From a virus: a DNA stretch of 33,554 bases. Positions 6,735 to 29,585 of this stretch are shown here, one piece after another. The stretch's first letter is position 1, and the number at the start of each line of letters is the position of its first letter. Position numbers and translations under genes: made by a program. The stretch covers positions 1 to 33,554 of IMG/VR virus record IMGVR_UViG_3300045970_000743; one strand, given 5' to 3'. The notes beneath the pieces are model-generated. The model was not told the origin of the DNA. It saw nothing but the letters and a program-made list of their open reading frames with translations, and did no database searches.

Positions 6735-6763
6735 GTGTACATCCCGCTTCGAGGTGATATAAT
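6735..6763 (+). promoter_or_regulatory. early promoter 5
   Basis: GTGTAC (6735-6740), 17 bp, TATAAT (6758-6763), extended -10 TGA. A TTACA box lies at 6722, 13 bp before the -35. Confidence 0.75.
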
Positions 6764-7980: not shown

Positions 7981-8395
7981 GGAATGTCTTGTAGATGGAT
8001 ACTGCACCCATTAGGAGCGAGCCCAACAGAGCGACCATAGCCCAGCCGCCCTTGAGGAAGGACTTGTCGCCCTCGATGGTGGTGAGCCGAGCTTCAAGGG
8101 ACTTGAAGTCCTTGTGTAGACCGACGAGGTCAGCTTGTTCTAACATACGTGTTACTTTCTCGATGTCCTTCTGCATCTGCAGAAGGTCGACCATTCGAAT
8201 GTGGTCGATGATGTGTTTAGATGGGTCGAGCCCGGTGAAGTACACCTTGATGCCACTCACCGTGTCAACTACCGTGTGGAGGTCCTCCTGCAGGTGGGAC
8301 ATGTTTACATCGGCACGTTGGTCACGCTCCTTGCGGGCAACATTTGCCGCCTCGAGCAACACGATAATCTTGTCGTACTGTTCATTGTCCTGCAT
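7973..8395 (-). CDS. holin-like C-tail-anchored membrane protein
   Basis: 140 residues. A long helical/coiled-coil cytoplasmic part (about 1-112) ends in a single hydrophobic segment near 117-135 (WAMVALLGSLLMGAVSIY). This is the XhlA-like arrangement (coiled coil then one membrane span) seen in some phage holin or lysis-accessory proteins. It is preceded by AGGAGGAAG. Directly upstream of the spanins, a role in lysis is likely. Holin activity itself is inferred from topology and position. Confidence 0.5.
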   Translation of the reverse strand: MQDNEQYDKIIVLLEAANVARKERDQRADVNMSHLQEDLHTVVDTVSGIKVYFTGLDPSKHIIDHIRMVDLLQMQKDIEKVTRMLEQADLVGLHKDFKSLEARLTTIEGDKSFLKGGWAMVALLGSLLMGAVSIYKTFHG

Positions 8396-13290: not shown

Positions 13291-13977
13291 TTAGCTTGGG
13301 ATGCTGTAGTTGACGAGCAGGCGTGCTGAGCCGACCGTTGCGCCACCCGCGGAGTACGTGGCGATGAGTGCCTCAGGTGAGCCGTCGGGCAGGAGACCCG
13401 GGTTTGTCTGCCACACCGCGAGTTCCTGCAGGGAGTTGTCACCGGCGCCCATGTACTTGGCCGTGTCACCCGTGATGCCGACGGTGACCGTGGCGGTCCC
13501 GTCAAACACCGTGTCGACGATGCAGTTTACGTTCAAGATCACCGCGTTAGCCGGCAGCGTGAACATCGTGACTGGAGACGAGGCGCCGAAGGCGATGGTA
13601 GTCGTATCCGTGATATCCGTGGCACCTGAGGCGGTGTCGATCCAGGAGGTGTTGCCTGAGCCGTCGGTCTTGAGGACCTGGTTCGGTGAGCCACCTGAGG
13701 TCGGCAGGGTCAGCGTCCAGTCCGCCGTCATGCCCGTAGCTGGACGGGCGATGTTCAGCTTCCAGTCCGCACCCGCTTCTGTCGCGTCGCTGTTGATGAC
13801 GAGACCTGTGTCACTCGAGGCCTTGAACTGGTCGGCGGTGACCGCTACGTCGGCGGTGTCTCCGGAGTTCCGGACCTCGAGGGCACCGGAGTTATCCTTG
13901 AGACGAGGACCCGTCTTGCCGATACGGAAGTACGAGAGCGTGGTACCGATGAGATCGGCGAACAAGTGCTTGATCAT
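13291..13977 (-). CDS. fibre-type protein, 228 aa
   Basis: Preceded by AAGGAG. The N-terminus (MIKHLFADLIGTTLSYFRIG) differs from the other fibre genes. The middle has the SPNQVLKTDGSGNTSWID unit typical of fibre repeats. The C-terminal 110 residues look like a compact beta domain (FGASSPVTMFTLPANAVI...). Homing endonuclease gene 14022-14549, on the opposite strand, separates it from the next fibre gene upstream. Confidence 0.7.
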   Translation of the reverse strand: MIKHLFADLIGTTLSYFRIGKTGPRLKDNSGALEVRNSGDTADVAVTADQFKASSDTGLVINSDATEAGADWKLNIARPATGMTADWTLTLPTSGGSPNQVLKTDGSGNTSWIDTASGATDITDTTTIAFGASSPVTMFTLPANAVILNVNCIVDTVFDGTATVTVGITGDTAKYMGAGDNSLQELAVWQTNPGLLPDGSPEALIATYSAGGATVGSARLLVNYSIPS

Positions 13978-14003
13978 GAAATAAACTCCTTGGGGGTGTG
14001 GAA

Positions 14004-14015
14004 CTGTGATACAAT
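14004..14015 (+). promoter_or_regulatory. extended -10 promoter of the GIY-YIG gene
   Basis: TGATACAAT with the -10 hexamer TACAAT at 14010-14015 and no good -35. The expected transcription start, 7 bases on, falls on the ATG at 14022, so the mRNA may be leaderless. Confidence 0.5.
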
Positions 14016-14021
14016 CATGTT

Positions 14022-14549
14022 ATGACAAGTGGAACATACATCTGGTACAGAAACGAAGTCCCTATTTACGTCGGTAAAGGTTCATCAAAGCGAGCGCGAT
14101 CGCACACTTTAGGACGACGTAAACTGACTAAATTAGCGCAAGAACTTCTTAAAGATCCAAATGCCTTTAGACTGGAGTGGTTTCCGATGTCATCTGAAGA
14201 ACAAGCCTTCAACGCGGAGGAGTGGTTGGTGGAGTTCTTTGGTCGGGAAGATCTTGGCACTGGTTCTTTGTACAATCTGACGACAGGTGGTACGGGTGGT
14301 TCATCTCTCGGACCGAGAGCGAAGCAGCTCATTGGCGACAAGTCGAAGGCATATTGGGCAGATCCTGAATGGAGATCTAAGGTTCTTGCTAAGCGAACTG
14401 CAAGAAATGCTGACCCTGAGGTAAGAGCTCGCAAGAAAGCCGCCCAGAACAGACCAGAAGTCAAAGCCAAGAAGGCGGCAAGCCAGAGACGAGCCATCGC
14501 AAGTCTCTCCGCTGAGGAACGTGCAGTGTTTGGTAGGCCGAAGAAATAA
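14022..14549 (+). CDS. GIY-YIG homing endonuclease
   Basis: 175 residues. The N-terminal catalytic domain shows TYIWY (5-9) and IYVGKG (15-20) as the GIY and YIG elements, Arg/His residues at 24-28, and a catalytic-type Glu at 66-67 in FNAEEWLVEFFG, then NLTTGG at 85-90. The C-terminal 80 residues are basic with DPEVRARKKA and NRPEVKAKKA units, a NUMOD3-like DNA-binding tail. The gene faces against the surrounding fibre genes and ends one base before the next convergent stop. It has no ribosome site. It likely cuts a fibre gene of related phages lacking it and spreads by repair. Confidence 0.85.
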   Translation: MTSGTYIWYRNEVPIYVGKGSSKRARSHTLGRRKLTKLAQELLKDPNAFRLEWFPMSSEEQAFNAEEWLVEFFGREDLGTGSLYNLTTGGTGGSSLGPRAKQLIGDKSKAYWADPEWRSKVLAKRTARNADPEVRARKKAAQNRPEVKAKKAASQRRAIASLSAEERAVFGRPKK

Positions 14550-14550
14550 G

Positions 14551-15555
14551 TCATCGTTGTTGCAACTCAATGCTTATTAGACCTGAGCCCTGTGTAGACG
14601 AGCCGGGGTTGATGTAGAGCGACACCTGCGTGTCTACCACATATTTAAGTCCGCTGGTGCTTTGATAGCCACACGCCTCATACGGATCTATGTTAGTTTG
14701 AAGCGAGGAGTTATCAGCTGTGTCGCCGATGGTCATCGTAGCTCCGGTCCCATTCAAGGCGACATCCACGTAGGTGGTGATGACCTTTACGAATACGCCT
14801 GCGGGCACGATGAGTAAAGGGAAGATCGTGGTTACGTTGTACTGCCATGGGATGTCGACTACGCGGTTGCTGGCCCAGACAAGACCTGTAGTAGCCGTGC
14901 TGTCTGCAGTCAAGACCTGGTTGGCTGTGCCGACGGGCAGTCTCGTGCTTGCCGTCCCAGACCGGACAAAGATGTCACCTTTCGTCGTCAAGGGGCTGAG
15001 TGCCTCTCTCGTCGGTGCAGGTGAGGTGAAGGTCAGTCCACCACCGATGGGGTCGAAGTAGATCGACGCACCACCGGTAACTCCGGAGTTGTTGAACTGC
15101 AAGGCACCGATACCACCGCTGGGCAGGACCGTTGCCGTTACCGGCTCCAAGGTCAGGTTCGTTACTCGACCTTGGGCGTCGATGGTCAAGACAGGGGTCT
15201 GACTGGTGGTGCCATACGTCCCGGGCAACGGGAACACCGACGCCAAGGAGGTTACTGAGGAGTTCGCCGTTTTAGTGACGTCGCCCGTGAGTTCGGGGCT
15301 GAGGTTCAACCAACCGGACGATGTCCCGATGTAGACCTCGCCGCTGTCCGTGCTGAGGTAGATAGATCCAACGGACAGCGCAGGGCGGTTCGCCAAGAGC
15401 CCGACGTTGAGGTCCACGGTGCCCTCGGTCGTGACGAACCCTGAGCCGTTCAAGATCGATGCGTTCTTGTTCCACTGCGCCATCAAGGCGAGCCACTCCC
15501 GTGGGACCAGCCCGCGCTTGTCGGCGATGGGGATATTGACCGGTAAGGTGCTCAT
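14551..15555 (-). CDS. fibre-type protein, 334 aa
   Basis: Starts at ATG 15555, one base overlapping the previous stop. Residues 1-30 (PIADKRGLVPREWLALMAQW) resemble N-terminal segments of podovirus fibre-associated proteins. The middle holds IGALQFNNSGVTGGASIYFD and SPLTTKGDIFV...RLPVGTANQVL modules, near-copies of those in the 979-residue fibre. The C-terminal part (from about 245) is a distinct beta domain. Probable tail fibre component. Confidence 0.7.
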   Translation of the reverse strand: MSTLPVNIPIADKRGLVPREWLALMAQWNKNASILNGSGFVTTEGTVDLNVGLLANRPALSVGSIYLSTDSGEVYIGTSSGWLNLSPELTGDVTKTANSSVTSLASVFPLPGTYGTTSQTPVLTIDAQGRVTNLTLEPVTATVLPSGGIGALQFNNSGVTGGASIYFDPIGGGLTFTSPAPTREALSPLTTKGDIFVRSGTASTRLPVGTANQVLTADSTATTGLVWASNRVVDIPWQYNVTTIFPLLIVPAGVFVKVITTYVDVALNGTGATMTIGDTADNSSLQTNIDPYEACGYQSTSGLKYVVDTQVSLYINPGSSTQGSGLISIELQQR

Positions 15556-17072
15556 CAGTACTCCACGACGCAGAGACCGGCACCGCCGCTGCTACCCGCC
15601 GGTCCGGTCCCACCTGAGCCACCTGCACCACCAGCCCCGTAGGCGCCCATCATCGAGCGAGTTGTGCCGACGAGGACAAGCCCGGTGCCTGAGCTGCCCG
15701 GCGTGCCGGCTGTACCTGCACTGAACGACGCACCCGTGCCCGGCTGACCACCGGTAGCCGACGACAAGGTAATGCCGAACGAGGTCGTGCCACCCGCGGT
15801 TCCCGTACCACCCGAGGACGTTCCACCACCACCCATCGAGCCGATGGAGACCGGGTAGGAGGTGCCTGGTACAACTGTGACGTACGTCCACGTGGTAGTG
15901 CCTGCGCCACCTGCGCCACCCGGCTGGTCGTGGTTGTACCCATCGCCGTCGGTCCAGGTGTAGCCACCACCTCCACCACCACCTCCACCAACTGAGGTTA
16001 CCTTGACCGTAGTCACGTTCGATGGGCAGGTCCATGAGGAGTTTGAGGTGAACACCGCGGTTCCTCGAGGTGGCAGGGAGGTCGCCGACGGAGGTGGGCT
16101 GCACACGATGAGATCCGTCCCGTCGTAGAGCACAGGTGTAGTCAGTCCGGCTGGGATACTGATGCTGTACTTTGCACCGGCTGAGCTGTATGCCTTCAGG
16201 GCGAGTGCTCCCAGACCGGAGATGTTCAACGTGCAGGGTGCGGTCCCGGCACCGACGAACTTCACCGACCAGACCCCGTCGGTTCCATAGGCGGAGATGG
16301 CGGGTGTAGGCGTCAGCACATAGGTGCCCGTTCCTGTAGCGGTCTGGACCAAGGCGGCTCTGGCTCGCTTAGCCTCGGTGGTGGCGATGGACGACGTCAA
16401 GGTGGTGTTGATCGACGTTACCTTGGCGCCCAACGTGTTCGCCGTGGAGTAGGTCAGTCCATCGAACCAAGAGACCGCACCCGCATCTACGGTCACTCCA
16501 TTGGCGACCAAGGCGCTGCCTTCGACCAAGGACAACCCCGAGGTCAAGACCCCGGCGTCGAGGAGGACCGTAACGGTGCTGTTCGGCGAGGAGTACGAGA
16601 TAGCAGACACCGTGCCGTACAGCTTGGCACCGGACTGGGTCAGTCGAACTCGGTTGCCGACCGCCAAGGCGGTGGTCTGGTTCCCCGGTACCAGGAAGGA
16701 CGTCGTCGTCAGGAACGTGCCCGTCCCGATGGATGCCCACACCGCGGAGGTCGTCGTGGAACCACCTGAGGTAGATGCGCCTACACCCGTCACCCCGTCG
16801 AAGGACTTCAGGACCGTGCCGTCTGAACTCGTCAGCACCAGGTTGTACGTGTCGCCGCTGATGAGCCAGATACTGGTGCTGAGCTGACCGGCGGAGTTCA
16901 GGACCAGGGGGTTGGTGTTCTGGACCGTACCTGAGGCGGAGGTGTAGGTTTCAAGCAGGGTGCCGCTCGACCCACCGACGTAGGTGTAGATCAAGCCACC
17001 GGACAGGGGCTTGCCCGCCGTGTCCAGGAAGGTAGGGATGTTGAAGATCGGCGAAAGGAGTACGGTAGCCAT
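15555..17072 (-). CDS. tail fibre with glycine-rich tip, 505 aa
   Basis: Residues 1-100 (SPIFNIPTFLDTAGKPLSGG...) are paralogous to the N-terminus of the next fibre upstream (17082-18083), suggesting a shared virion-attachment domain. The last about 165 residues start with VFTSNSSWTCPSNVTTVKV and become a Gly-rich array with long GG runs ending GLCVVEY. This resembles glycine-rich phage adhesin tips that bind receptors. AAAGGAACAAC precedes the ATG. Confidence 0.75.
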   Translation of the reverse strand: MATVLLSPIFNIPTFLDTAGKPLSGGLIYTYVGGSSGTLLETYTSASGTVQNTNPLVLNSAGQLSTSIWLISGDTYNLVLTSSDGTVLKSFDGVTGVGASTSGGSTTTSAVWASIGTGTFLTTTSFLVPGNQTTALAVGNRVRLTQSGAKLYGTVSAISYSSPNSTVTVLLDAGVLTSGLSLVEGSALVANGVTVDAGAVSWFDGLTYSTANTLGAKVTSINTTLTSSIATTEAKRARAALVQTATGTGTYVLTPTPAISAYGTDGVWSVKFVGAGTAPCTLNISGLGALALKAYSSAGAKYSISIPAGLTTPVLYDGTDLIVCSPPPSATSLPPRGTAVFTSNSSWTCPSNVTTVKVTSVGGGGGGGGGYTWTDGDGYNHDQPGGAGGAGTTTWTYVTVVPGTSYPVSIGSMGGGGTSSGGTGTAGGTTSFGITLSSATGGQPGTGASFSAGTAGTPGSSGTGLVLVGTTRSMMGAYGAGGAGGSGGTGPAGSSGGAGLCVVEY

Positions 17073-17081
17073 GTTGTTCCT

Positions 17082-18083
17082 TTACGTCTTGATGACAAAA
17101 TTGATTGCTACGTTGACAGGTCGCGTCTCGGTGCCGCCGGTGAAGCTCGTCGGCGGGGTGTAGACCATGGAGCGGTCCGTGCCGGACACTGTAATGGTAC
17201 CCGCATTGAACCCGCCGTTGTCGGCGTTGATGGTGTGGTTGTGCGACTTGAAGGCGTCTGTCTGCGCTGAGCCAAGCGTGCGACCTGGGTCAAGACCCCG
17301 CCCGTTGTCAAGACCCCGTAGGAACTGACCACGTAGGTCGGGTAGGTTGAACGAGCCGGATGCACCGCCATAGGTGTAGCCGATCGCGGTGAACAGCGCA
17401 GCATAGGTCGTCGTCGAGACCGAGGCGCCGTCACAGAGCAGCCAGCCGGTAGGTGCGGTGGCGCCGGCGTACATATCCACGAAGCCGGCGGGGCGACTGC
17501 CCGTTGCGATGGTGGTGTCTACGTAGCCCTTGGTGGCGGCGTCGGTTGAAACCGTAGGTGTCGCGACGGCTTGGATGCGAGCTGAAGCCGCGTTCAACGT
17601 GGCGGTCACCGAGGTGGCGGTCACGGCGTGCAGGGTTGATGCGCCGGTGACGGACAAGGTCGACGACAGGGTAGTCGCCCCGGCGGACAACGTGCCACTG
17701 ATGGAGATGGAGCCGGTTACCGCACCACCCGTCAGGGGCAGGTACGCACCGCTGCCTGCGGCGATCATCGCGGTGACTTGACTGGCGGTGACCAGACCCT
17801 CGACGTAGGAGTAGGTCTCGATGACGGCACCGGTCGAGGAGGTCAAGACCAGGTCGTAGGTCTGACCGGCGAGCAGCCACACGCTGGTGCCAAGCTTGCC
17901 GGCGGAGTTCAACACGATCGGGTTGGTGTTCTGGACCGCCACACCGGAGTTGTTCGTGTACGTCGCCTTCAGGAGGGAAGATGAGCCACCTTCGTAGGCG
18001 TACAGCTTTCCTCCAGCCAAGGGCTTGCCGAGCACGTCGAACTGGGTGCCACTTGCGAAGACTGGACTGATGCTGATCGTCAT
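17082..18083 (-). CDS. tail fibre with phage collar domain, 333 aa
   Basis: N-terminal 100 residues match the following fibre gene in form (LGKPLAGGKLYAYEGGSS, NTNPIVLNSAG). A repeat shaft follows. From about residue 200 there is a phage tail-collar domain: AGFVDMYAGATAPTGWLLCD, then GSFNLPDLRGQFLRGLD and a final ETRPVNVAINFVI. These domains occur at the distal part of fibres. First fibre gene transcribed in the late arm; AAGGAT lies ahead of the start. Confidence 0.85.
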   Translation of the reverse strand: MTISISPVFASGTQFDVLGKPLAGGKLYAYEGGSSSLLKATYTNNSGVAVQNTNPIVLNSAGKLGTSVWLLAGQTYDLVLTSSTGAVIETYSYVEGLVTASQVTAMIAAGSGAYLPLTGGAVTGSISISGTLSAGATTLSSTLSVTGASTLHAVTATSVTATLNAASARIQAVATPTVSTDAATKGYVDTTIATGSRPAGFVDMYAGATAPTGWLLCDGASVSTTTYAALFTAIGYTYGGASGSFNLPDLRGQFLRGLDNGRGLDPGRTLGSAQTDAFKSHNHTINADNGGFNAGTITVSGTDRSMVYTPPTSFTGGTETRPVNVAINFVIKT

Positions 18084-18111
18084 TTACATATCCTTCTTGG
18101 TTACAACTTAG

Positions 18112-18142
18112 TTGACACTTGGTCGGCTAAGTATGATACAAT
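18112..18142 (+). promoter_or_regulatory. promoter of the antisense membrane-protein gene
   Basis: TTGACA (18112-18117) and TACAAT (18137-18142) with a long 19-bp spacer, helped by an extended -10 (TGATACAAT). A TTACA box lies at 18101. The same extended -10 form is used by the other opposite-strand gene at 14022. Confidence 0.55.
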
Positions 18143-18163
18143 AGCCTAACAACGGAGCAACCT

Positions 18164-18538
18164 ATGAACAAACTGACCACACCTGAGTTCTTGGCGACCT
18201 GCACAGCTATGGGGATGCTGATCGGTTCCGTCCGGAAAGACATCGAAACCAAGCAACCAATCGGCAAGACCTGGGGCGAGCAGTGGTTCGCCTTGTTGGT
18301 GCTGTCGTTCTTCGTTCCCATCGTGTGGCCGATATTCTTCGCCAGCCTGTTCAGCAGGATCTGCAGCATCACCAAAGCCGAATGGAAGTCCATGTTCAGC
18401 GGACACGGTACTGCTCCAGTTCGTCTGAAGAAGGTTTCTCGTCCTTCACGCGGTACTGCTCCAGCTCGTCGGAAGCCGGTGCCTTGTATTGGTCAAGCTC
18501 AGACGAAGCAGGCGCGCCGGATTGAGCCGCATCTCTGA
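18164..18538 (+). CDS. small membrane protein, moron-like
   Basis: 124 residues on the strand opposite to all surrounding virion genes, with its own promoter and a GGAG ribosome site. Residues about 41-63 (WFALLVLSFFVPIVWPIFFA) are a strong membrane segment, and 10-23 a weaker one. The last 48 residues are basic, contain two GTAP-R repeats, and are encoded antisense to the 3' end of the ejection-protein gene. In P22 the superinfection-exclusion gene sieA lies in a similar place, between gene 16 and the tailspike, in reverse orientation. A superinfection-exclusion or host-fitness role is therefore plausible, by position and topology only. Confidence 0.6.
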   Translation: MNKLTTPEFLATCTAMGMLIGSVRKDIETKQPIGKTWGEQWFALLVLSFFVPIVWPIFFASLFSRICSITKAEWKSMFSGHGTAPVRLKKVSRPSRGTAPARRKPVPCIGQAQTKQARRIEPHL

Positions 18539-19475
18539 CCGGCACCGCCGCCGCGAGAGCACCACGACCCGCATTGCCCAGATTGCGCACACCTGCTTTC
18601 GGCAGGATCGTAGCCGCGGACTGCGCGGCTTGGATAGCCAAGTTAGCTTTACCCTTAGTAAACTCATGTCCGCCCATAATCAGCGCGCCACCCAAACCGG
18701 TCGCATTCGGATCCATACCGGTAACTAAACCAGCTCCATACCCAGCTCCATACCCACCACCGACCCGAACGGCTTGCCCGGCAAGCGCCTTGGCCGCATC
18801 AACCACACCGGGCAAGGCCGCTCTTGAGGCCGGCTGCCACTCCTGATTGGCGATCTTGCTCTCGATGGTGGTTGCTGCTTGTTGTTGTCCACGAAGGGAC
18901 TGAACCAGCTTGGCGTCCTTGCCGGTCAGACCTAATGGAAGCTTCAGCTCGACGGCGCGCCGTGCATCCTCAGGTGAAAGCCCCGTCTTATCGGCTAACT
19001 TCACCAAGGTGCGGTGTTCCTTGGCGGCCATGGAGTACCGCATGGCATCTTGTACCATTGGGTTCTTACCAAGGGCTGTGCGTGCAAGCTGCGCGCCTTT
19101 GTTCAAGGCCGCAGCAGAACCGCCACCAAAGGCACCCAGTCCAGCGCCGAGTGCAGCATCTTGTAGTGGGTTCTCGCCGCCCTCGGTTAGTCCTGAGATA
19201 CCGCCTTGGGCGGCACCTTGCGCCGCGAGACGGGCGAACCCTGAACCTCCTGTGGCGATACCGGTAGTTACCGCACCACCTAACGTGCCCGCGAGGGTGC
19301 TGTTAGGTGAGTTCCGCCCGTCTTGTGCCTCCAGGTCGCGAACGTCCTGCAGCGACTTGGAGTAGGGCTGATCCATCGCAATGGAGTGCACGAGCGCGGC
19401 TGGGTAGCGCGCGGTCCCCGCTGAGGCGGAGTTCCCAAAGGCTTTTAGTCCGGCGAGGAAGTCAGCGAGAGCCAT
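18396..19475 (-). CDS. DNA ejection protein with C-terminal repeats, 359 aa
   Basis: Ala/Gly-rich protein with hydrophobic Gly-rich stretches (about 60-125 and 240-275), as in P22-type internal ejection proteins that enter the cell with the DNA. Its last about 40 residues carry three copies of an S-x-ELxQY-K/R motif. It follows the gp20-like gene and precedes the fibres, the place of P22 gene 16. The exact match to gp16 is not certain; the role in ejection is inferred. Confidence 0.55.
   Translation of the reverse strand: MALADFLAGLKAFGNSASAGTARYPAALVHSIAMDQPYSKSLQDVRDLEAQDGRNSPNSTLAGTLGGAVTTGIATGGSGFARLAAQGAAQGGISGLTEGGENPLQDAALGAGLGAFGGGSAAALNKGAQLARTALGKNPMVQDAMRYSMAAKEHRTLVKLADKTGLSPEDARRAVELKLPLGLTGKDAKLVQSLRGQQQAATTIESKIANQEWQPASRAALPGVVDAAKALAGQAVRVGGGYGAGYGAGLVTGMDPNATGLGGALIMGGHEFTKGKANLAIQAAQSAATILPKAGVRNLGNAGRGALAAAVPVRDAAQSGAPASSELDQYKAPASDELEQYRVKDEKPSSDELEQYRVR
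18402..18510 (-). repeat. three in-frame ELxQY repeats
   Basis: Three imperfect direct repeats encode SSELDQYK, SDELEQYR and SDELEQYR. The two distal copies share CGGTACTGCTCCAG on the plus strand, where they encode GTAP in the overlapping membrane-protein gene. Confidence 0.7.
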
Positions 19476-19476
19476 G

Positions 19477-20871
19477 TTACTCCTTCGTCAAGTTGTGCTT
19501 CTTGACAAGTTCAGCCACCTCGGCTGGGGTCTTGACACCATTCTTGTTCAAGTCAAGTCTGCGTCCATTAGCGTCCTTGTAGTAGAGTGGTGACGGTGAC
19601 GTGACATCCTTCGCCGTCTTCGAGAGGTTACCTGAGCCTGCGATACCCACCTGCGTCGTTGCTTTCTTGCCGAGACGTCCGCTTTCAACATCAAGCTGAC
19701 GCTTCACGGCATCCAGTCCGTCGAGGATGTCCAGCTTGGAGTTCGGGTTGTTCGCGTTGTGCTTGTCGATGGCGGACTGAATGGCGGCGTACTTCGGGTC
19801 CTGCGCGATCAGTCGGTTCCAGACGGCACGGGTTACCGAGCCGGGCTTGCCGTACTTGGTGCCCATCCCTTCGTCAATGGCGCTGACGCCTTGGTCGATG
19901 ACGCCCTTCTGCGAGGCAAGGTCACCGGCGGCACCAACGGCCTGGGCTCGCTCACCAGCTGACGGCGTGATGGACCCCATGATCTGCTGGATGGTCGGGT
20001 TGTTCCGTAGGAAGGCGGCCGACAAGGTCCGAACCCGCGCTTGCTGCTCAGGTGTCAGGTCAGGGTTGGCGCGAATGTAGCCGTCTTGCAGCTCACGAGA
20101 TTGAGGAGAGGTGTTGTTGCGCTCATTAGGGCCGACGCCGCCGCTGGCTCCACCTTGGTCCAGACCTTCCTGCGCCTGCTTGTTCGCGATCTCCTGCTGA
20201 GGTGAGATGCTGCGGGCCTTGGCATATCCCTCACTGGTGTCGACGAAGTGCTTGGCTACTTGTGCCTGTACGCTCGGGTTGTTCGGGTCGACGCCCTGCA
20301 GGTTATCGCCGCCGTACCGGTTCGACAGGAACTGCTTGGTGCCCGCTTCACCCAAGACCGGCAGTAACAGATCATGCGTCGAGCGCATGATGCCCAAGGC
20401 CTGCTGAGGGCTCTTGGCGACACGCATCATGTTGTCGTGGGTGGTCGTGATGCTGTCCGTGAGGTTCTTCACCACGGTGGCGTTGTCAAACTTACCCCGT
20501 TGGTTCTCGATGGCTTTCTGCTGGTACCCGAAGATGATCCCTGGGTCTTGACCTTCCTCCGACAGCTGGTTCGCGACACCGGAGTGGTCGATTACACGGT
20601 TCCCATCGGCGTCCTTGGTCGTGTACAGCTTCGCGATCTCGGCAGCGCGTACGCGCGTGGCGTTCTCACGCTTCTGCTGCTCAAGCTCCTGCTGTGCTCG
20701 GGCGGTGGCGACTTGTGAGGCGGCGTTCTCATTCGCCAGCTTCGTCGGCAGGTTCGCGTTCTCAAGGATGGTGCGCTGCAGGTTCATCCCTTTCTGGGCC
20801 GCACCCATTGGGTCGAACTGGGGGATGCCTTGACCGGCCTGTAGTGCGATAGACGCGTCGATGTTGTTCAT
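19477..20871 (-). CDS. internal virion/DNA ejection protein, gp20-like, 464 aa
   Basis: ATG 20871 is chosen because GGAGAAGC precedes it and it overlaps the upstream endonuclease stop (ATGA); an in-frame start at 20898 would lie inside that gene. Mostly helical and Gln/Ala-rich (residues 45-90, ATARAQQELEQQKRENATRV). It has further helices and no signal peptide. Length and place between a gp7-like gene and another ejection protein match P22 gp20. Expected role: part of the complex that moves DNA across the envelope. Confidence 0.6.
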   Translation of the reverse strand: MNNIDASIALQAGQGIPQFDPMGAAQKGMNLQRTILENANLPTKLANENAASQVATARAQQELEQQKRENATRVRAAEIAKLYTTKDADGNRVIDHSGVANQLSEEGQDPGIIFGYQQKAIENQRGKFDNATVVKNLTDSITTTHDNMMRVAKSPQQALGIMRSTHDLLLPVLGEAGTKQFLSNRYGGDNLQGVDPNNPSVQAQVAKHFVDTSEGYAKARSISPQQEIANKQAQEGLDQGGASGGVGPNERNNTSPQSRELQDGYIRANPDLTPEQQARVRTLSAAFLRNNPTIQQIMGSITPSAGERAQAVGAAGDLASQKGVIDQGVSAIDEGMGTKYGKPGSVTRAVWNRLIAQDPKYAAIQSAIDKHNANNPNSKLDILDGLDAVKRQLDVESGRLGKKATTQVGIAGSGNLSKTAKDVTSPSPLYYKDANGRRLDLNKNGVKTPAEVAELVKKHNLTKE

Positions 20872-21533
20872 TTTGCTTCTCCACATTGTCGATGCCATCT
20901 TGGCATCGTAAAGGCACCACCTGTTTTCTTGCAGAACAGGCAGGTCATTAGGGGCTGCTTACCATGAACCCTAAGCTTGGCTTTAGCGTGACGTTCAGCC
21001 GTCCACCCTGGTCGTTCAACCTCGCGCAGCTTCTGCACATACTCGGGGCTCAACTTTAGTCCCTTGTTCCAAGCTTCATGCGAGGGTAGTTTACGACCGA
21101 GATTGATTTGGCGCATATGTTTACGATAGTCTTCGTACTCAGGTGATGCTTTTCTGACAGCCATTGCCTCTTTATGTGCGGCGGAGTTCTTCAGTGAGTT
21201 GGAAAGCTTTGAACTTGCCTCAGGTGTTGGGTCGCGAAAGCCGTCACCACCTGCTGTAACATTCAGAAGAGAGCCAGTTTCAAGATGGCGGCGACCATAC
21301 TTTGCAATGGCCTCCATCTCAACAAGTCCCGCAAACTCGGCGTCCACCCCTTCGCAGATAAAGTCAATGGTAGGCTTAACTCCTTCGGCTTGCATCTTGT
21401 TTAGACGGTGTGTAAAGTGATGGTTATCCTTTCGCTTTAAATGAGACCAAGCCCGTCGTTTCTTGCCCATACCAACGTAGATGACTTCGTTACGAGAAGG
21501 ATCGCTGTAACGGTAGACATAGTGTTCTGCCAT
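20868..21533 (-). CDS. GIY-YIG homing endonuclease with zinc-finger tail
   Basis: 221 residues. YVYRY (5-9) and IYVGMG (18-23) mark the GIY and YIG elements, followed by KKRRAWSH and a catalytic-type Glu at 72-74 (LVEMEAI), then NVTAGG at 91-96. Residues about 100-165 are basic with NUMOD3-like segments (e.g. HMRQINLGRKLPS). The end has CLFCKK...HRQC, a probable small zinc finger. It is inserted between two ejection-protein genes on the same strand, with AAGGAGC upstream and an ATGA overlap to the next gene, and supplies that gene's ribosome site. Confidence 0.85.
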   Translation of the reverse strand: MAEHYVYRYSDPSRNEVIYVGMGKKRRAWSHLKRKDNHHFTHRLNKMQAEGVKPTIDFICEGVDAEFAGLVEMEAIAKYGRRHLETGSLLNVTAGGDGFRDPTPEASSKLSNSLKNSAAHKEAMAVRKASPEYEDYRKHMRQINLGRKLPSHEAWNKGLKLSPEYVQKLREVERPGWTAERHAKAKLRVHGKQPLMTCLFCKKTGGAFTMPRWHRQCGEAK

Positions 21534-21542
21534 GTCTGCTCC

Positions 21543-22463
21543 TTAGGGCTTCTTGTTCAGCCACTGCTGCGTGTAGTAGTTGTTCAGGCCGGTATTGATG
21601 CCGCCGACGATGGCGTTGGTCGAGCCGATCTGACCCGCGGCGCCTGCATTGGCGCCCGACGTCAAGAACCCGTTAGATGCGCCCACACCACTCATGGTGT
21701 TCGAGGCGATGTTCTGACCGGCTCCTGCACCTGCGGACTGGTTACTTGCGCCGACCGTGGAACCACCACTCGCCAACCCGCTGAGCCGGCTGAAGATGTT
21801 GTTCTGGTTCGTGGTGTAGCGGTTGTACGCGTTGCCGTACTCCTGTGAGGCGGCGTCTTGGTTGTAGTTCGAGATGTCCTTCAACGCCTGCCCACCAAAC
21901 CGGTTACCTGTGGCGGCACGTCGTGCAAGCAGCGCTTGGTTGCCTTGGTCCATGCGGAACTGGTAGCCTGGGTCGATGCCGTTCTTGAGGTCCGTTGCGT
22001 CAAACTGATGTGTGAAGTAACCGGCTGGGACGGCACCAGCCGCACCTGCAAGTTCGCTGTCGGTCGCGCCGTAGTTGGCACCGGCAAGACCGTACGGGTC
22101 GGAGTTGTTCGTGACGACGTTGCCTTGGGCGTCCGTCGGCTGACCTTGCGCGTTGGTGTAGGTGCCACCCGGTGCTCCGCCCGGCTGCATCGTTGGGTTC
22201 AGGCTTGGGTTTCGAGCGGCACCAAGTCCCAAGCCGCCGGATAGAGCCGACAAGGCGAGCTGACCCGTCCGTTGGTAGGGCGCGTTCTGCTGAAGCCCAT
22301 TCTTGTACAGGTCCGCCTGCAGCTGGTTCGTCTGCTGCGTCGCCTTCAGTGTGTTGTCCGACGCCTGCCCAGCGGCGGCTTGCTGCATCCCAGCTGCCTT
22401 TCGGCTGCTGTCCGCGGCGAGCAGTCCTCCGACTACGCTAATCCCCGTTGCAAACCATGCCAT
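21543..22463 (-). CDS. internal virion/DNA ejection protein, gp7-like, 306 aa
   Basis: ATG 22463 is chosen for the strong AAGGAGCC; a longer reading from 22568 has no support. It starts MAWFATGISVVGGLLAADSS, a Gly/Ala hydrophobic head. The rest is rich in Gly, Ala, Asn and Gln, with NRFGGQALKDI in the middle. This style is usual for phage ejection proteins. It overlaps the cupin gene by 26 bp. Assignment to the gp7 position is from order and composition. Confidence 0.6.
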   Translation of the reverse strand: MAWFATGISVVGGLLAADSSRKAAGMQQAAAGQASDNTLKATQQTNQLQADLYKNGLQQNAPYQRTGQLALSALSGGLGLGAARNPSLNPTMQPGGAPGGTYTNAQGQPTDAQGNVVTNNSDPYGLAGANYGATDSELAGAAGAVPAGYFTHQFDATDLKNGIDPGYQFRMDQGNQALLARRAATGNRFGGQALKDISNYNQDAASQEYGNAYNRYTTNQNNIFSRLSGLASGGSTVGASNQSAGAGAGQNIASNTMSGVGASNGFLTSGANAGAAGQIGSTNAIVGGINTGLNNYYTQQWLNKKP

Positions 22464-22998
22464 GTTCGGCTCCTTCAAGTAGTGGTGCGTCGGACATGAT
22501 GACGTCGAGCTCAATGTCCTCCAGCGTTGTCTTTGTGGTGGCGTGGCAGGTAACCATGGTGCAGCCAAGCTCGGTCAAGATCACCCGTTTCTCACCCGCC
22601 GGAGAGATGAAGGTGAACGGCGCGACGAAGTGCTCGACACCACGCTCCGTCATGATGGTAGCTTCACCGAAGAGCAGCATGAACACGTGCTCAATCGCGT
22701 GTCTCTTGCCGACGATGAGCGTACCTGGTGGTAGGTGCAGGGTGCGGTTGTAGACCTTGCCGGTAATGTCGTGCCAAGTTTCAAACGGGTCGTCCTCCGG
22801 AGACAGGTGGTCGGGCAGCTCGTTCAAGGCGGCCTCAAGGCGTTCAATCTTCAGTCGGCTATTTAGCGCTTCGGGTGAGACTGGAAGGGCGTCGAACTCC
22901 TCGCGGCTCAGCCGCTTCGGGATGTCCAAGAGGTGCAAGGTCTTATGCTCGACCAGAGGTAGGGCCGCCAGGTCCTGAAGGATCGCAAGTGCGCTCAT
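22438..22998 (-). CDS. cupin-like protein of the tail module, 186 aa
   Basis: Start overlaps the gp10-like stop (ATGA). Residues about 85-160 look like a cupin barrel: LHLPPGTLIVGKRHAIEHVF, LLFGEATI, HFVAPFTFISPAG and a late CHAT, with several His residues that could bind a metal. The N-terminal 80 residues are helical and acidic. In P22 the tail-needle gene lies here; this protein does not look like a needle. It may be structural, an assembly factor or an enzyme. Confidence 0.55.
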   Translation of the reverse strand: MSALAILQDLAALPLVEHKTLHLLDIPKRLSREEFDALPVSPEALNSRLKIERLEAALNELPDHLSPEDDPFETWHDITGKVYNRTLHLPPGTLIVGKRHAIEHVFMLLFGEATIMTERGVEHFVAPFTFISPAGEKRVILTELGCTMVTCHATTKTTLEDIELDVIMSDAPLLEGAEHGMVCNGD

Positions 22999-24449
22999 GA
23001 GGACCCTTCCTCATAGTCGAGGTAGGCGCCCAAGAAGACAGGCTGGAACCCGTCACACCCGATGGCGAATACCGCGTCACGTGCATAGCCTAACCGGTTC
23101 CATCGAGCTCTCCAGCGGTACTCACCGACCTTGCCCATCGAGGCGTAAACTGGGTTGCCGTAGGTGGCACCGCCATCACGAGAGATCCGCAAGGTCAGTC
23201 TTGGGTCCTCGGTGAGTGACCCGATGCCCGCTTGGATGTCTACCTGCAGCGTCTTGTAGAAGCAGACACTGACGCCCTTCGAGATGTGTGGTGTCCGACG
23301 CTCACGGTAGCAGGTGCTGTCGCCGTCTTTGTCGTAGGTCTGGTCGAGCTGGTACAAGTTACCACTTGAACGATCCCCGATGAGGTGCACGCCGTTCAGG
23401 AAGCAGTGCGTCTGTCCAGCCCACCGGTCAAACACTCCGCTGTAACGGGTCTGCTTGTCGAACCAAGTCTTCGTCGTCAGGTCGTACGTCAAGGTGGTGT
23501 TCAACGTTGGGACCTGCAGAGCGTAGAAGTAGTGCCCGTCCTCCTGCCAAGCCACGGCGGTGGCTGAGGTCAAGTCACCCGCCTGCTGGAGCACGTGCTC
23601 GATGGCGTGGGTAGATACCCGGTTCGGCACGTCGCTGTCCAGCGCGTAGACCACGCCCGCACCTTGGTCGTTCTGACCAAGGAAGATGAACGTATTGGCG
23701 ACCCGCTGCACCGTGCCAGGTGCCTGACAGCCGATGTTGATGGACCGACCGGAGTTAGGGGTGAAGGCATCGGAGAGCGCCGTTGCCTGTGAGTTCGTAG
23801 CCCAGACCTCCAGCGTCTTCGAGCCGAGGACGTACAGTTGCTGGTTTGCGGAGATCAAGGCGCGAATGACGTCGGGTGAGGTGTCGGCACTGAACTCATT
23901 CAAGGCCGGCCAGGTCGTGCTGTCGGGGGTGCCGATGAAGAACGACGTCGAGTTCGGACCTTCGTCGCAGATGAAGTACCCACTGAGGTAGGTGCAGGTA
24001 ACAGCCCCGTTGTAGAAGTGCGGGTCGTTGATGGTCGTCAAGGCGTTGGTGCTGAGGTCAACGAAGTACCCGTTGGCACCGTCCACGATGAGCAGGTCGG
24101 TCCCGTTGTCCACCATGCTGACGAACCCGACGGAGGTGTTCAGGTTGCCGGTGATGCGCACCAGGGTTCCGAGAGGTGAGGTCAGGAAGTACACCTCATT
24201 GCCGCTGACGAAGAATGCGCGCGAGGCGTTGCTGAGCAGGTACGACCCACGGTGTGGACCACTGCCCAAGGACTGGACCTGGCGCAGGCCGGCACAAGCC
24301 GTCAGGTAGCCAGGTGCGGCGTTCTTGCCACCACCGACGTCGGAGGCCTCGACGTACATATTCAGGGTGCGTTGGTTGTCGAACGCCCGTGACTTGGCGG
24401 GATAGCTGCCAGAGATAAATGGAAACTCAGCTTGCGGTAGACGTTCCAT
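22995..24449 (-). CDS. P22 gp10-like tail hub/DNA stabilisation protein, 484 aa
   Basis: Length is close to P22 gp10 (472 aa). The start NxRTLNMYVEAS, repeated beta-propeller-like strands (e.g. YFLTSPLGTLVRITG, FIFLGQNDQGAGVVYALDSD), and the end WNRLGYARDAVFAIGCDGF fit the packaged-DNA stabilisation family. It would cap the connector and hold the DNA in the head. The ATG overlaps the preceding gp4-like stop by one base (TGATG). Confidence 0.75.
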   Translation of the reverse strand: MERLPQAEFPFISGSYPAKSRAFDNQRTLNMYVEASDVGGGKNAAPGYLTACAGLRQVQSLGSGPHRGSYLLSNASRAFFVSGNEVYFLTSPLGTLVRITGNLNTSVGFVSMVDNGTDLLIVDGANGYFVDLSTNALTTINDPHFYNGAVTCTYLSGYFICDEGPNSTSFFIGTPDSTTWPALNEFSADTSPDVIRALISANQQLYVLGSKTLEVWATNSQATALSDAFTPNSGRSINIGCQAPGTVQRVANTFIFLGQNDQGAGVVYALDSDVPNRVSTHAIEHVLQQAGDLTSATAVAWQEDGHYFYALQVPTLNTTLTYDLTTKTWFDKQTRYSGVFDRWAGQTHCFLNGVHLIGDRSSGNLYQLDQTYDKDGDSTCYRERRTPHISKGVSVCFYKTLQVDIQAGIGSLTEDPRLTLRISRDGGATYGNPVYASMGKVGEYRWRARWNRLGYARDAVFAIGCDGFQPVFLGAYLDYEEGSS

Positions 24450-25201
24450 CAGTAGCCCCTTGGGTAGAGTGCCGGACGACGCTGTGCTCGTCCGGTTAAG
24501 CTAAGCCCGGCATCGGACGGCGTCACGACCTGGGTCTGTTTGTTCAACGTCTTGATAGCCGTCTCCGCCTGCTCGAGGTTGGCGCGTGTGGTGTCTGAGA
24601 CCTGCTTGCCGAACTCAGGTGCGACCTCAACGGCGAGCTTCAACGTGAGGTACCGCTCATAGCCCTTCGGGAGGTTCAGGTCCGCCGTGAGGTCGGTGTA
24701 GGTGCTCAGCGGTGCCCACATCCAGAGCTCGATGGCGAACGCGTTCTGGGGGACCGGCCAGAGCCGAACGGTGCGAAGCGGGTAGGCACAGTCGTCGTAC
24801 AGCATCGTGGGCCAGGTGCTGCCGACGAACCGAAGGGGCTGCTGGGCGAACTGGGAGTAGTTAGCCAGCTTCAACCCGAAGAACTGCGTGCTGGAGGTTT
24901 GTCCGATGGAGCCGTCACCACCGATGGCCGGATAGAGCATCACGTTCGCAGTCTCGATGCGCATCGGGCGTGGAGTGTCCCAGTCGCCGCCTGGACCCAA
25001 GGTGTAGGCCTCTTTGTTCGCCGTGAGTAGGAACCGTAGGGGCGTGATGGTGAAGATGTTGCTCAGGGAGTTCGACAGGCTGTCCATCAAGGCGTTTAAG
25101 GCCTCGAGGCAGATCGCGGTGTCCTGCGCCTGTGGTGGCTCAGACGCGCCGATGACGTTCAGCTGACGTAGGGCGCCGGTGATGATGGACTGGATGGTCA
25201 T
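24449..25201 (-). CDS. head-tail connector, P22 gp4-like, 250 aa
   Basis: Full-length copy of the connector. ITGALRQLNVIGASEPPQA and CLEALNALMDSLSN at the N-terminus are the helical gp4/gp11-type signature. GPGGDWDTPRPMRIETA follows, then VRLWPVPQNAFAIELWMWAP and NLPKGYERYLTLKLAVEVAP. It would bind below the portal and receive the gp10-like hub. AAAGGACC precedes the start. Parts of this protein are duplicated in the next two genes upstream. Confidence 0.75.
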   Translation of the reverse strand: MTIQSIITGALRQLNVIGASEPPQAQDTAICLEALNALMDSLSNSLSNIFTITPLRFLLTANKEAYTLGPGGDWDTPRPMRIETANVMLYPAIGGDGSIGQTSSTQFFGLKLANYSQFAQQPLRFVGSTWPTMLYDDCAYPLRTVRLWPVPQNAFAIELWMWAPLSTYTDLTADLNLPKGYERYLTLKLAVEVAPEFGKQVSDTTRANLEQAETAIKTLNKQTQVVTPSDAGLSLTGRAQRRPALYPRGY

Positions 25202-25210
25202 ATTGGTCCT

Positions 25211-25984
25211 TTATCGTGTCTTGGCGCGAGGACTGAGCATCCACGCCCCAGAAAGGAAGTCGATCTTGTTGTACACCGTGCCTGTGCTGTTCAGGGACAG
25301 GGCGAGGTCGGAGGCGGGTGTCGTCAGCGCAACTCGGTTGATGGACTGCAAGGCCTCTTCAGCCTCCGCCTGGCTGGCAATGATGTCCGCCGAAGGTGGC
25401 TTGCCGAACAGGTCGCTGAGCTCAAGGGCGAGGGTGTAGGTCAACCAGCGCTCATAGCCACGTGGTAGGTTCAGCTCCTCGGTGGGTGAGGTGTAGATCC
25501 CAAGGGGCTCCCAGCACCAGAGCTCGACACCTACCGTGCGGTCCGTTGGGATAGGCCAGAACAACAGCTGTCGGTTCGGGTAACCGCCGTTGTCGAGCAT
25601 CACCTGAGGGATGGCGTTGGTGACACCTCGCTGTGGGATGCCGGCGTACTGCTCGTCGTTGACGGTCTCGATGTTGATGCTCACCGTACCTTCGCCGATG
25701 GAACCGGCCCTGGTGTTCGTGTTTGGTCTGATCGTGACTTGATGGAGGGCGTCGGTGGTCCCGATAGGTCCTGCTGCGCGCAGCATGATCGTGAGCACTC
25801 CGGGCGTCGTCGCGACCTTGACGGGTTCAGTTGCAGTCGAGGTCGTTCCATCGCTAAACGTCCAGACATACGTGGCGGTGTAGTTCTCGTTCACGGTGGT
25901 GGTGTTCAGGAGCTGGACTACATCACCAACTCGACAGGTAGCTGGTGTGAGGAACGCGGCGGTTGGTACACCTGGTGTGCTCAT
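25211..25984 (-). CDS. C-terminal half of a second gp4-like connector with Ig-like domain, 257 aa
   Basis: Residues about 1-95 form an Ig/PKD-like domain (PTAAFLTPATCRVGDVVQLL, YVWTFSDGTTSTATEPVKV). From about 105 it matches the second half of the intact connector: LLFWPIPTDRTVGVELWCWE and NLPRGYERWLTYTLALELSD. The N-terminal connector half is missing and is found in the gene just upstream. It has its own strong AAGGAG, so it is a separate protein rather than a frameshift product. It probably assembles with its partner half. Confidence 0.75.
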   Translation of the reverse strand: MSTPGVPTAAFLTPATCRVGDVVQLLNTTTVNENYTATYVWTFSDGTTSTATEPVKVATTPGVLTIMLRAAGPIGTTDALHQVTIRPNTNTRAGSIGEGTVSINIETVNDEQYAGIPQRGVTNAIPQVMLDNGGYPNRQLLFWPIPTDRTVGVELWCWEPLGIYTSPTEELNLPRGYERWLTYTLALELSDLFGKPPSADIIASQAEAEEALQSINRVALTTPASDLALSLNSTGTVYNKIDFLSGAWMLSPRAKTR

Positions 25985-25993
25985 CGTGTCTCC

Positions 25994-27082
25994 TTAGTAG
26001 GCGTAGGTGCCGACGCCACACATCGGCACGAACCCGATGTTGTTCGAGGTGTTCGAGTTGCTCACATAGACCCCGTTTACGTAGAACTGCACGGAGTAGC
26101 TGGAGTTTACGACCCCGACGACGTCACCGGCGACCAGCGGAGGTAGGGTAGACTGCACACCGCCGTAGCCGTAAACCGCGGCGGAGTACTGGTCGGTCGC
26201 GAGGTAGGACGACAGGGGTCCGCCAGCCATGGTGTTCGGGTCGTAGGGTGGACCGTAGGACTGGATGAAGATACCCGCTTGACACCAAGCCGTCGGGGTC
26301 TGCAGGAGCTTCATCTCGAACGCCCGACTGGTGCCGTCGTCGTCCCAAGTGGTGGTGGTCTTGAAGGTCGCGCCGTTCTGAACCCAACCGCTGTGTGGGA
26401 AGTCAGCTTGGTTGATGTACGCCAGGTTCGGTGCATAGAGCACACCACCGGTGGGCAGCGCAGTGCTGTCGAACTCACCGGCAACGTCGGTAAATGCCCC
26501 ATAGGCGGAGGCGTACTGCATCGTGGCGGCGGTCCCGTTGTACTGCCAGAGCCCGACGACCGGTGGGTCGGCTGGCTGCACATACCAGAGCTTGGTGTCC
26601 GTACCTGCGGAGTTTGCGACCGTCAGCGAGACGAGGTAGTTACCTGCAGTGGCGTAGGTGTGCGTTGGGTCTTGAGTGGTGGAGGTCGAGCCGTCGCCGA
26701 AGTCCCAGAGCCAACTTGTTGGGTTGAAGGTGCTTGCATCAACGAATGCAATAGTCAGGTCGGTGCGGGTCGAGGTGAAGTTAGCGGTTGGTGACGTCAC
26801 GATGTCCGGTGAGAGCAAGACCCGGCTGAGTTCAAGCCGCATTGGGCGCTCAGTTACCCAGTCACCCGTCGGACCGAGATCGTAGCTGTACTGGTTGTTC
26901 TCAAACAGGAACACCAGTGGAACCCGCTTGAAGATATTCGTCAACTCGTTAGACCGGCTGTCTAACAAGGCGTTCAGTCGCTCCTGCGCCTGCTCGACGT
27001 CGACGGCGGTCGGGACCTCATTGACCCCGATGACGTTCAACTTGCGTAGGGCGGCGGCTGTGATGGACTGAATGGTAGCCAT
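25994..27082 (-). CDS. N-terminal half of a second gp4-like connector with PKD and SPRY-like domains, 362 aa
   Basis: ATG 27082 (GGAGAG upstream) preferred over 27103. Residues 1-95 match the first half of the intact connector (LRKLNVIGVNEVPTAVDVEQ, GPTGDWVTERPMRLELSR). A PKD/Ig-like domain follows at about 110-165 (SWLWDFGDGST, HTYATAGNYLVSLTV). The rest ends in a SPRY/lectin-like fold (LVAGDVVGVV, VQFYVNGVYV). The Ig and SPRY-like parts probably face outward and bind surfaces. The second connector half is in the next gene. Confidence 0.75.
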   Translation of the reverse strand: MATIQSITAAALRKLNVIGVNEVPTAVDVEQAQERLNALLDSRSNELTNIFKRVPLVFLFENNQYSYDLGPTGDWVTERPMRLELSRVLLSPDIVTSPTANFTSTRTDLTIAFVDASTFNPTSWLWDFGDGSTSTTQDPTHTYATAGNYLVSLTVANSAGTDTKLWYVQPADPPVVGLWQYNGTAATMQYASAYGAFTDVAGEFDSTALPTGGVLYAPNLAYINQADFPHSGWVQNGATFKTTTTWDDDGTSRAFEMKLLQTPTAWCQAGIFIQSYGPPYDPNTMAGGPLSSYLATDQYSAAVYGYGGVQSTLPPLVAGDVVGVVNSSYSVQFYVNGVYVSNSNTSNNIGFVPMCGVGTYAY

Positions 27083-27104
27083 AACTCTCCATAGAAACGG
27101 CAAA

Positions 27105-27128
27105 GGGTCAAGCGGTTAGGCTTGACCC
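27105..27128 (-). terminator. hairpin terminator or attenuator after head genes
   Basis: Perfect 9-bp stem GGGTCAAGC / GCTTGACCC with a 6-nt loop, followed on the minus strand by TTTGCCGTTT. The T content is moderate, so partial termination is more likely than complete. Confidence 0.55.
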
Positions 27129-27165
27129 CATCGAGGTAGAGGACCCAACGATGTGGCCCGTTGGC

Positions 27166-27378
27166 TTAAGCCGAGATCAGACCGAGGGCGGTCAGGGCGG
27201 TCAGGAGAGTGGCGAGGTCGGTAACGCCGGTTGGCTTCAGGACCGGGGTGGTGCCGAAGAACCCGATGTTGCCGGTAGACGAGGCGACCATGACGTCCGG
27301 ACCAACGAACTGGAAGTTCGCGGTCGTAACGGTGGATGGCGTGCTTGTCTGTGAGGACTGCGTGGTGAATGTGCTCAT
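27166..27378 (-). CDS. small head decoration/head-fibre protein, 70 aa
   Basis: AAGGAAAC precedes the ATG. The segment GNIGFFGTTPVLKPTGVTDL and the following LTALTALGLI match the C-terminal trimerisation-type motif of phage head-fibre and decoration proteins. It lies directly after the coat gene between two hairpin terminators. Likely binds the capsid surface. Confidence 0.6.
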   Translation of the reverse strand: MSTFTTQSSQTSTPSTVTTANFQFVGPDVMVASSTGNIGFFGTTPVLKPTGVTDLATLLTALTALGLISA

Positions 27379-27408
27379 GATGTTTCCTTATGTTTGTTCA
27401 GGTCAGGC

Positions 27409-27430
27409 AAAGGAGGCCGAAGCCTCCTTT
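27409..27430 (-). terminator. UUCG-loop terminator after the coat gene
   Basis: Minus-strand stem AAAGGAGGC / GCCTCCTTT, 9 bp, closed by a C(UUCG)G tetraloop. It starts 3 nt after the coat stop and its last arm ends in UUU. It may stabilise the coat mRNA as well as partly end transcription. Confidence 0.7.
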
Positions 27431-27433
27431 CGC

Positions 27434-28708
27434 TCAACCGTAGTAGACCTTGGTGGACAACTGGGGATACAGGGGTGCCCAACCGCCGAGCACGTCGTAA
27501 CGCAGCTTGTACGCACGGGTGTCGATGTCGAACTGCAGGGCGCAGTAAACGGAGAGGCCGAGTTCCGGCAGCGAGGCGACGAAGAAGTCAGCACCACCGT
27601 TGGAAGCACCACCGCCAACTTGACCAGCACCCGATGGGGAGATGTCAGCCGTTGCGAAGATGATGGCGTCCTTGGCGAAGGCCAGACCGGTCTTGCCGGT
27701 CGTACCCGTGGCGCCGAGCACCGTGATGAGGGCGTTGTCCGGGATGGCGATGGAGATGTTCGAACGTGGGTCACCAGGAGCGATGACCTCAGGAGAGATC
27801 GCGACCGTGGAGTTACCGGCGCCGTCGGTAACGGTAGCGGCGGTCACGCTGAACTGCTTGGCGTAGCCGAGGTCCTGCTTGGTCTCAGGGTTGACGGCGT
27901 TGACACCGGCGATGGTGAACACCGTGCCGACTGCGAGGGTCGTGGTCGTTGCGGTCCAGCCGTCGGTGATCAGCGAGGAGCCCGACTGCGATGCGCCGTT
28001 GACGCGCGGGGTGCCACCGTAGGTCGATGCGGCGGTAACCAAGGGCTGCGTCGTCACGAACCAATCCATGCCGCTGAAGCCGGAGATGTGTCCGGACTTC
28101 TGGATGTCGGAGATCAACACCTGCGGGTTGAACTGGTTGGTCGTGTAGGTGTAGCCGAGGTTCTCGAACGAAGGCGGCGTAGCCATCGCCCACTGCTCAC
28201 CCATCGGTGCCAGGTTTTCCGTGAGGACCTGACGGGCGGAGCCGATCAGACCTTGGAAGCCGGCGTTGCTGGTGATCGCGGTGCCTGGGGTGCCAACGGC
28301 GTTCGGGGTGTACTGCATCAGCTTCGTGAAGCCGCGCTGCGTGATCTCAGCGGACATCCGACGCATTGCCGGCTGACCGTAGCGAACCATGAAGTCGTCG
28401 ACCGACAGGTTCAAGTCGACCATGTCGAGGAACATGTGCTGCTTGTAGTTGTCCGTCAGGGCGACCGGCACGGTCTTGTCCGTCAGGGCTTGACCTTCGA
28501 ACTGTGAGCTTGAGAGGTTCGTGGTGCCGTTGAACTGACCAGGCAGGCGGGCGTTGGTGATTTCACCGATCTTGGCGCCGGTCTTGCCGAAGCGCCTGTC
28601 ATAGTCGCGGTTGACGCGGGGCAGAAGACCGTTGATGTTGTACAGGTATTCGGCGCTGGAGAACGTAACGTCTCCGAGGACCTTCAGAATGCTTGATGGG
28701 GCTGCCAT
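27434..28708 (-). CDS. major capsid protein, P22 coat-like, 424 aa
   Basis: Close in length to P22 gp5 (430 aa). It lies after portal and scaffold, with AAGGAGCC ahead of the ATG. The N-terminal part (NRDYDRRFGKTGAKIGEITN, ALTDNYKQHMFLDMVDL) and the C-terminal KLRYDVLGGWAPLYPQLS resemble the P22 coat family. A telokin/Ig-like insertion domain is probably in the middle (about 220-310). Forms the icosahedral shell. Confidence 0.8.
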   Translation of the reverse strand: MAAPSSILKVLGDVTFSSAEYLYNINGLLPRVNRDYDRRFGKTGAKIGEITNARLPGQFNGTTNLSSSQFEGQALTDKTVPVALTDNYKQHMFLDMVDLNLSVDDFMVRYGQPAMRRMSAEITQRGFTKLMQYTPNAVGTPGTAITSNAGFQGLIGSARQVLTENLAPMGEQWAMATPPSFENLGYTYTTNQFNPQVLISDIQKSGHISGFSGMDWFVTTQPLVTAASTYGGTPRVNGASQSGSSLITDGWTATTTTLAVGTVFTIAGVNAVNPETKQDLGYAKQFSVTAATVTDGAGNSTVAISPEVIAPGDPRSNISIAIPDNALITVLGATGTTGKTGLAFAKDAIIFATADISPSGAGQVGGGASNGGADFFVASLPELGLSVYCALQFDIDTRAYKLRYDVLGGWAPLYPQLSTKVYYG

Positions 28709-28741
28709 GATGGCTCCTTAGATGTAGATTGACTTGCCTAT

Positions 28742-29518: not shown

Positions 29519-29585
29519 GCAATCTACTCCGTTGCGTGGGAAGGTGCTTCAGCACCAGGTGGTTTATTTATGTGGCGGGGGTGGT

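Follow-up and report, generated by a model that had tools for sequence, protein, structure and literature searches.

The superinfection-exclusion gene sieA of phage P22 is the described system closest to the gene considered here. It lies antisense between genes 16 and 9 and has its own promoter. Mutations that escape SieA map to the C-terminal regions of the ejection proteins gp16 and gp20, and sieA is present in 22 of 66 P22-like phages (PMC10883804). Proteins that can be likened to it by description are found in other phages: HK97 gp15, Tuc2009 Sie2009 and TP-J34 Ltp all block DNA injection (PMC10883804). The IMG/VR virus record IMGVR_UViG_3300045970_000743, analysed here over its 33,554 nucleotides (33.6 kb, hereafter the window), comes from a short-tailed phage whose portal, coat and head-closure genes, on the minus strand, are P22-like. 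Antisense to this late operon, at 18164-18538 (+ strand), lies a candidate superinfection-exclusion gene of 124 amino acids (aa) encoding a putative membrane protein. There is about an even chance that this gene excludes superinfecting phages in the way of P22 sieA while being unrelated to it. As far as sequence analysis can tell, its antisense slot is a real gene slot and the proposed function is promising.

The promoter, the ribosome site and the membrane-protein gene that the earlier note had described as opposing the late operon are all present in the sequence. The promoter (18112-18142, + strand), recognized by its sequence, combines a -35 TTGACA (18112-18117) and an extended -10 TGATACAAT (TG-A-TACAAT, 18134-18142). 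The spacer between them is 19 nt, which is why a standard consensus scan, limited to spacers of 16-18 nt, missed it. A ribosome-binding site GGAG (18154-18157, + strand) precedes by 6 nt the ATG at 18164. The open reading frame (ORF) faces the late operon between the tail-collar fibre gene (17082-18083, - strand), whose start codon is just upstream of the antisense promoter, and ejection-like gene B (18396-19475, - strand; 359 aa), the last of the ejection block, in the position of P22 gene 16. The slot between ejection protein and fibres is therefore where the same note had placed it, but it is not wholly intergenic: the 3' part of the ORF overlaps gene B by 143 bp, so that codons 1-77 are outside the overlap and those from about 78 on are antisense to B. 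Downstream of the ORF, the signal for a terminator is no greater than chance.

The 124-aa protein is predicted to have one strong membrane helix and perhaps a second weak one. Hydropathy peaks at 2.41 for aa 42-60 (coding stretch 18287-18343, + strand). This segment is inside one of the two helices (6-30 and 37-78) of a single-sequence AF2 model of low to moderate confidence (pLDDT 63.6, pTM 0.30), which predicts disorder after them. The disorder starts where the overlap with gene B starts, the disordered basic tail being the overlapping part. The protein has no match in Pfam, PHROG or NCBIfam, nor among the PADLOC profiles of known anti-phage defence systems, and a blastn search of the region against phages gave no match.

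Comparison with the closest relative, hereafter the sister phage (IMGVR_UViG_3300045974_000426, 35.5 kb; its ORF and gene B are in locus L003), reveals the exchange of a block. The two genomes share 97.4% identity over 14588-18166 and 96.6% over 21556-32979. Homology breaks off at 18166, with the third base of the antisense ATG, and is found again from 20161 on, within the ejection-like gene A (19477-20898, - strand; 473 aa, in the position of P22 gene 20), 20161-20868 being 92.7% identical. The exchanged block of 2.0 kb (18167-20160) thus takes in gene B entirely, the C-terminal half of A (19477-20160) and, from the ATG onwards, the membrane ORF, while the part encoding the N-terminus of A (20161-20898) is constant. 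Protein A is near-identical in the two phages up to about residue 246 and divergent after it; protein B resembles its counterpart only in about 100 N-terminal residues, with 35% identity. In place of the membrane ORF, the sister phage has an unrelated ORF of 102 aa with an N-terminal helix, which starts at the same ATG behind the same promoter and ribosome site, the leader regions differing overall by one substitution and one 2-nt indel. Two inserts, at 13975-14587 and 20869-21555, account for the remaining large gaps in the late half; they are absent from the sister phage at those sites and hold GIY-YIG-like genes (14022-14549, + strand, and 20868-21533, - strand). The sister phage record also has a repeat at both ends (L037 1-205 and L038 17374-17536; 133 bp at 98%), made of tandem LLTVLEQIAEQERR-coding units, which suggests that this genome is probably complete.

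A third phage (IMGVR_UViG_3300021437_000057, locus L040), with a head-closure protein 60% identical, carries an antisense membrane ORF of 118 aa at this position. The C-terminus of its protein A and its protein B (54%) resemble those of the sister phage. In the latter, an L040-type ejection block thus seems to be set in a backbone of the window type. According to the earlier note, its reading would be refuted if relatives did not conserve the frame. Formally this applies to the exact frame, of which no homologue was found; what is kept, while the coding sequence is swapped, is the slot with its promoter, start codon and orientation, and the membrane character of the product. The exclusion role gains support because the swap takes in the gene from the start codon on, together with ejection genes, because the P22 escape mutations map to the same kind of ejection-protein region as that swapped here, and because similar unannotated antisense membrane genes fill the slot in other P22-like phages.

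These unannotated ORFs were found in Xanthomonas phage PBR31, described as temperate (PMC10975493), in Rhodoferax phage P26218, described as lytic (PMC4657236), and in the IMG/VR contigs L043 and L045 (31 aa). In L043, a more distant phage, three successive small membrane ORFs occupy the slot (6019-6677, - strand), the last being cut by the contig end. Furthermore, a family of 53-aa antisense membrane proteins, also unannotated, groups 16 records (P26218, MW202557 and 14 IMG/VR loci). The start codon of its ORF falls in the gap that precedes the fibre or tailspike gene; at the opposite end, in every member long enough for this to be seen, the neighbouring gene terminates 36 nt within the ORF. 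This family is under purifying selection. Over the 42 codons outside the overlap, variable columns number 25, 14 and 38 at the first, second and third codon positions, and the pairwise ratio of nonsynonymous to synonymous substitution rates (dN/dS) has a median of 0.22 (range 0.06-0.70, for pairs with estimable dS). In the same way, the ORFs of P26218 and MW202557 differ by 12, 9 and 33 substitutions at the three positions. Such protein-level constraint indicates that the slot holds real genes. In MW202557, the hypothetical protein annotated opposite this ORF (L056 4985-5119, - strand) is probably a mis-call.

Like the window gene, members of this family lie antisense between the last gene of the ejection block and a fibre or tailspike gene with a PLxGGK N-terminal domain, encode a membrane helix (N-terminal in the family) and a basic tail, and have a short 3' overlap with the preceding gene. 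However, they have no sequence similarity to the window protein (phmmer E >0.9) and no recognisable promoter was noted for them; the family is also strongly conserved, in contrast to the window protein, of which no relative is known. Among other phages with P22-like portals, neither a gap nor an annotated antisense gene was seen at the slot in MW202483, MW202573, MW202674, MW202691, MW202520, DSL-LC05, Vibrio 1.183.O and BA3, in a survey judged by annotation rather than by ORF search (MW202483 alone was partly checked). The slot gene is thus sporadic, like sieA.

The antisense promoter looks early and could direct early transcription. Four early promoters of the window have TGTACA-16-TATAAT in common, three of them also carrying TGATATAAT, and TTTACA or GTTACA is found 37-38 nt before their -10. 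The antisense promoter has a GTTACA (18100-18105, + strand) 37 nt before its -10, and a TTTACA (18083-18088, + strand) lies further upstream. In the sister phage, GGTTACAAnnTAGTTGACAC at an early gene matches the antisense promoter at 18 of 20 positions; in L040, a GTTACG precedes TATGAT by 37 nt, as counted on the sequence. The exact pattern of the antisense promoter was found in IMG/VR in the sister phage only. Arrays of TTTACA, GTTACA and TGTACA precede early genes of the window at 1889-1961, 4583-4636, 5112-5172, 5415-5468 and 6694-6763, often with a spacing of 10-18 nt, and TGTACA-16-TATAAT promoters are found at four of them. A phage regulator may bind to these arrays; similar TTACR-N9-TGTACA sites are present in the third phage.

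On the antisense strand of the 24.7-kb late region (8.4-33.1 kb), the ORF at 18164 is the sole start to combine a Shine-Dalgarno match of at least 4, a 19-residue hydropathy of at least 2.0 and a minimum of 30 codons. The replacement gene (with its internal start) is likewise alone in passing these thresholds in the sister phage, and L040 has a few weaker ones. Among simulated stretches of 76 codons, 1 of 6000 was open with such a helix when the composition was that of the ORF itself, and none of 6000 with that of the late region. As the thresholds were set after the gene had been seen, all these figures are descriptive only. Antisense ORFs longer than this one are numerous in the G+C-rich window, so that length by itself carries little weight.

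If the gene acts like sieA, it would be transcribed against the late operon, early in infection, from its early-type promoter, and its product would be a small protein of the inner membrane. This protein would contact, and interfere with, the trans-envelope conduit built by the ejection proteins of incoming phages, so that related phages could not inject their DNA into an already occupied cell. Such a contact would fit the joint exchange, as a single block, of the membrane gene, the whole of B and the C-terminal half of A. A more specific version, which appears rather doubtful, is that of lock-and-key cassettes, in which every phage type would have a membrane protein adjusted to the ejection proteins that it encodes, both being inherited and exchanged together.

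Several observations weigh against the exclusion role or against its strict one-to-one form. The block swap is known from a single pair of genomes. The membrane ORFs of the sister phage and of L040 have no detectable relationship despite B proteins 54% identical, which argues against strict pairing, as does the finding that, in P22, two very different SieA types have the same target specificity (PMC10883804). Proteins A and B are called ejection proteins from their gene order after a P22 gp7-like DNA-ejection protein (PHROG 598; 21543-22568, - strand), which anchors the block, because profile comparisons of A with P22 gp20 and of B with P22 gp16 gave no detectable similarity. Searches of phages, IMG/VR and bacterial genomes gave no homologue of the exact 124-aa protein. 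Finally, neither an integrase (PF00589) nor an HTH_3 repressor (PF01381) was found in the window, a record that may be incomplete, or in the two relatives; a prophage-expressed role as in P22 is therefore not evident, and the gene, if it acts, may do so during lytic infection. Exclusion genes are known in virulent phages, for example imm and sp of T4.

Among the other explanations, the one that survives best, although it seems unlikely, is that of a membrane moron with another job, such as defence against unrelated phages or modification of the host membrane in the course of infection, inserted in a tolerated slot. It would travel with the ejection genes through its 3' overlap with B, the conserved promoter serving as recombination homology. 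The overlap does tie it physically to gene B, L003 and L040 have the same B type without a recognisably common membrane protein, and the membrane ORFs of the slot are very diverse, to the point of being three in a row in L043. However, linkage by the overlap does not need a swap that extends up to the ATG, 77 codons past it, and the slot adjoins ejection genes specifically in every case seen. The "host-defence moron" against unrelated phages that had been put forward in the earlier note found no specific support.

It is improbable that the element acts as an antisense RNA, damping late expression by pairing with the 3' end of gene B or with the fibre leader, its frame being incidental. Although the transcript would be antisense to the 3' end of gene B, and the nearby immI region of P22 provides an example in the antisense RNA sar, the Shine-Dalgarno sequence and ATG are correctly spaced, and chance seldom yields an open frame with such a helix. 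In addition, the replacement in the sister phage begins at the same ATG and also encodes a membrane helix, and the 53-aa family shows constraint at the protein level. A spurious ORF, to which the lack of any homologue of the exact protein would point, is quite improbable given the promoter, the Shine-Dalgarno sequence, the uniqueness of this membrane ORF and its replacement from the ATG. A lysis gene (holin or antiholin), suggested by the small size and basic tail of this membrane protein, is very improbable and was rejected, as the late operon already has a spanin-like pair (7424-8007) and a holin-like ORF (7973-8395, with a C-terminal hydrophobic segment), and the antisense gene faces away from late transcription with an early-type promoter.

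Other features of the window deserve mention. The probable lysis genes (7424-8395, - strand) encode an Rz1-like lipoprotein (weak LysC match), an Rz-like coiled-coil membrane protein and the holin-like ORF. The C-terminus of B is repetitive, with SSELDQYK/SDELEQYR in the window (18396-18520, - strand), SEPHPWED twice in the sister phage (L003 8380-8474) and SEPHPWQD and EPPPWQD in L040 (15450-15552). Two adjacent fibre genes have similar N-terminal coding stretches (16873-16927 and 17884-17938, 85% over 55 bp), as if their head-binding part had been duplicated. In front of the GIY-YIG-like gene at 14022-14549, TGATACAAT ends only 6 nt before the ATG, so that its transcript might be leaderless; an ORF similar to the GIY-YIG-like genes, at 33188-33484 (- strand), may be a third one.

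If the lock-and-key cassettes existed, DNA entry would be subject to an immunity-group specificity of its own, and this would extend to phages that show no signs of lysogeny. The natural exchange of a membrane gene together with ejection-protein C-termini offers direct test material for the exclusion role. Furthermore, the slot is apparently a wider and largely unannotated reservoir of candidate exclusion genes, including that of the lytic phage P26218, whose host is non-pathogenic, has been isolated and is in culture (PMC4657236).

The comparison with P22 SieA (NP_059639) combines clear likenesses and clear differences. The position and orientation, already compared to those of sieA in the earlier note, were confirmed against the P22 sequence. 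Both genes occupy an antisense slot that has the last ejection gene on one side and the tailspike or fibre gene on the other, and both encode a membrane protein, predicted in the case of the window. Each has its own promoter, recognized in the window by sequence only, and each adjoins genes of ejection proteins, on which SieA acts (PMC10883804). However, the protein is not recognisably SieA, as had also been stated (phmmer E 0.52-4, blastp E 6-8). SieA has 162-164 aa and three helices, whereas the window protein has 124 aa and one strong helix; the FxRYPxEAxxFNK motif of SieA (PMC10883804) is absent from it and, in contrast to sieA, the window gene overlaps an ejection gene. By sequence, helix number, size and motif, the predicted protein is thus not SieA, while by its slot, orientation and membrane character it resembles SieA.
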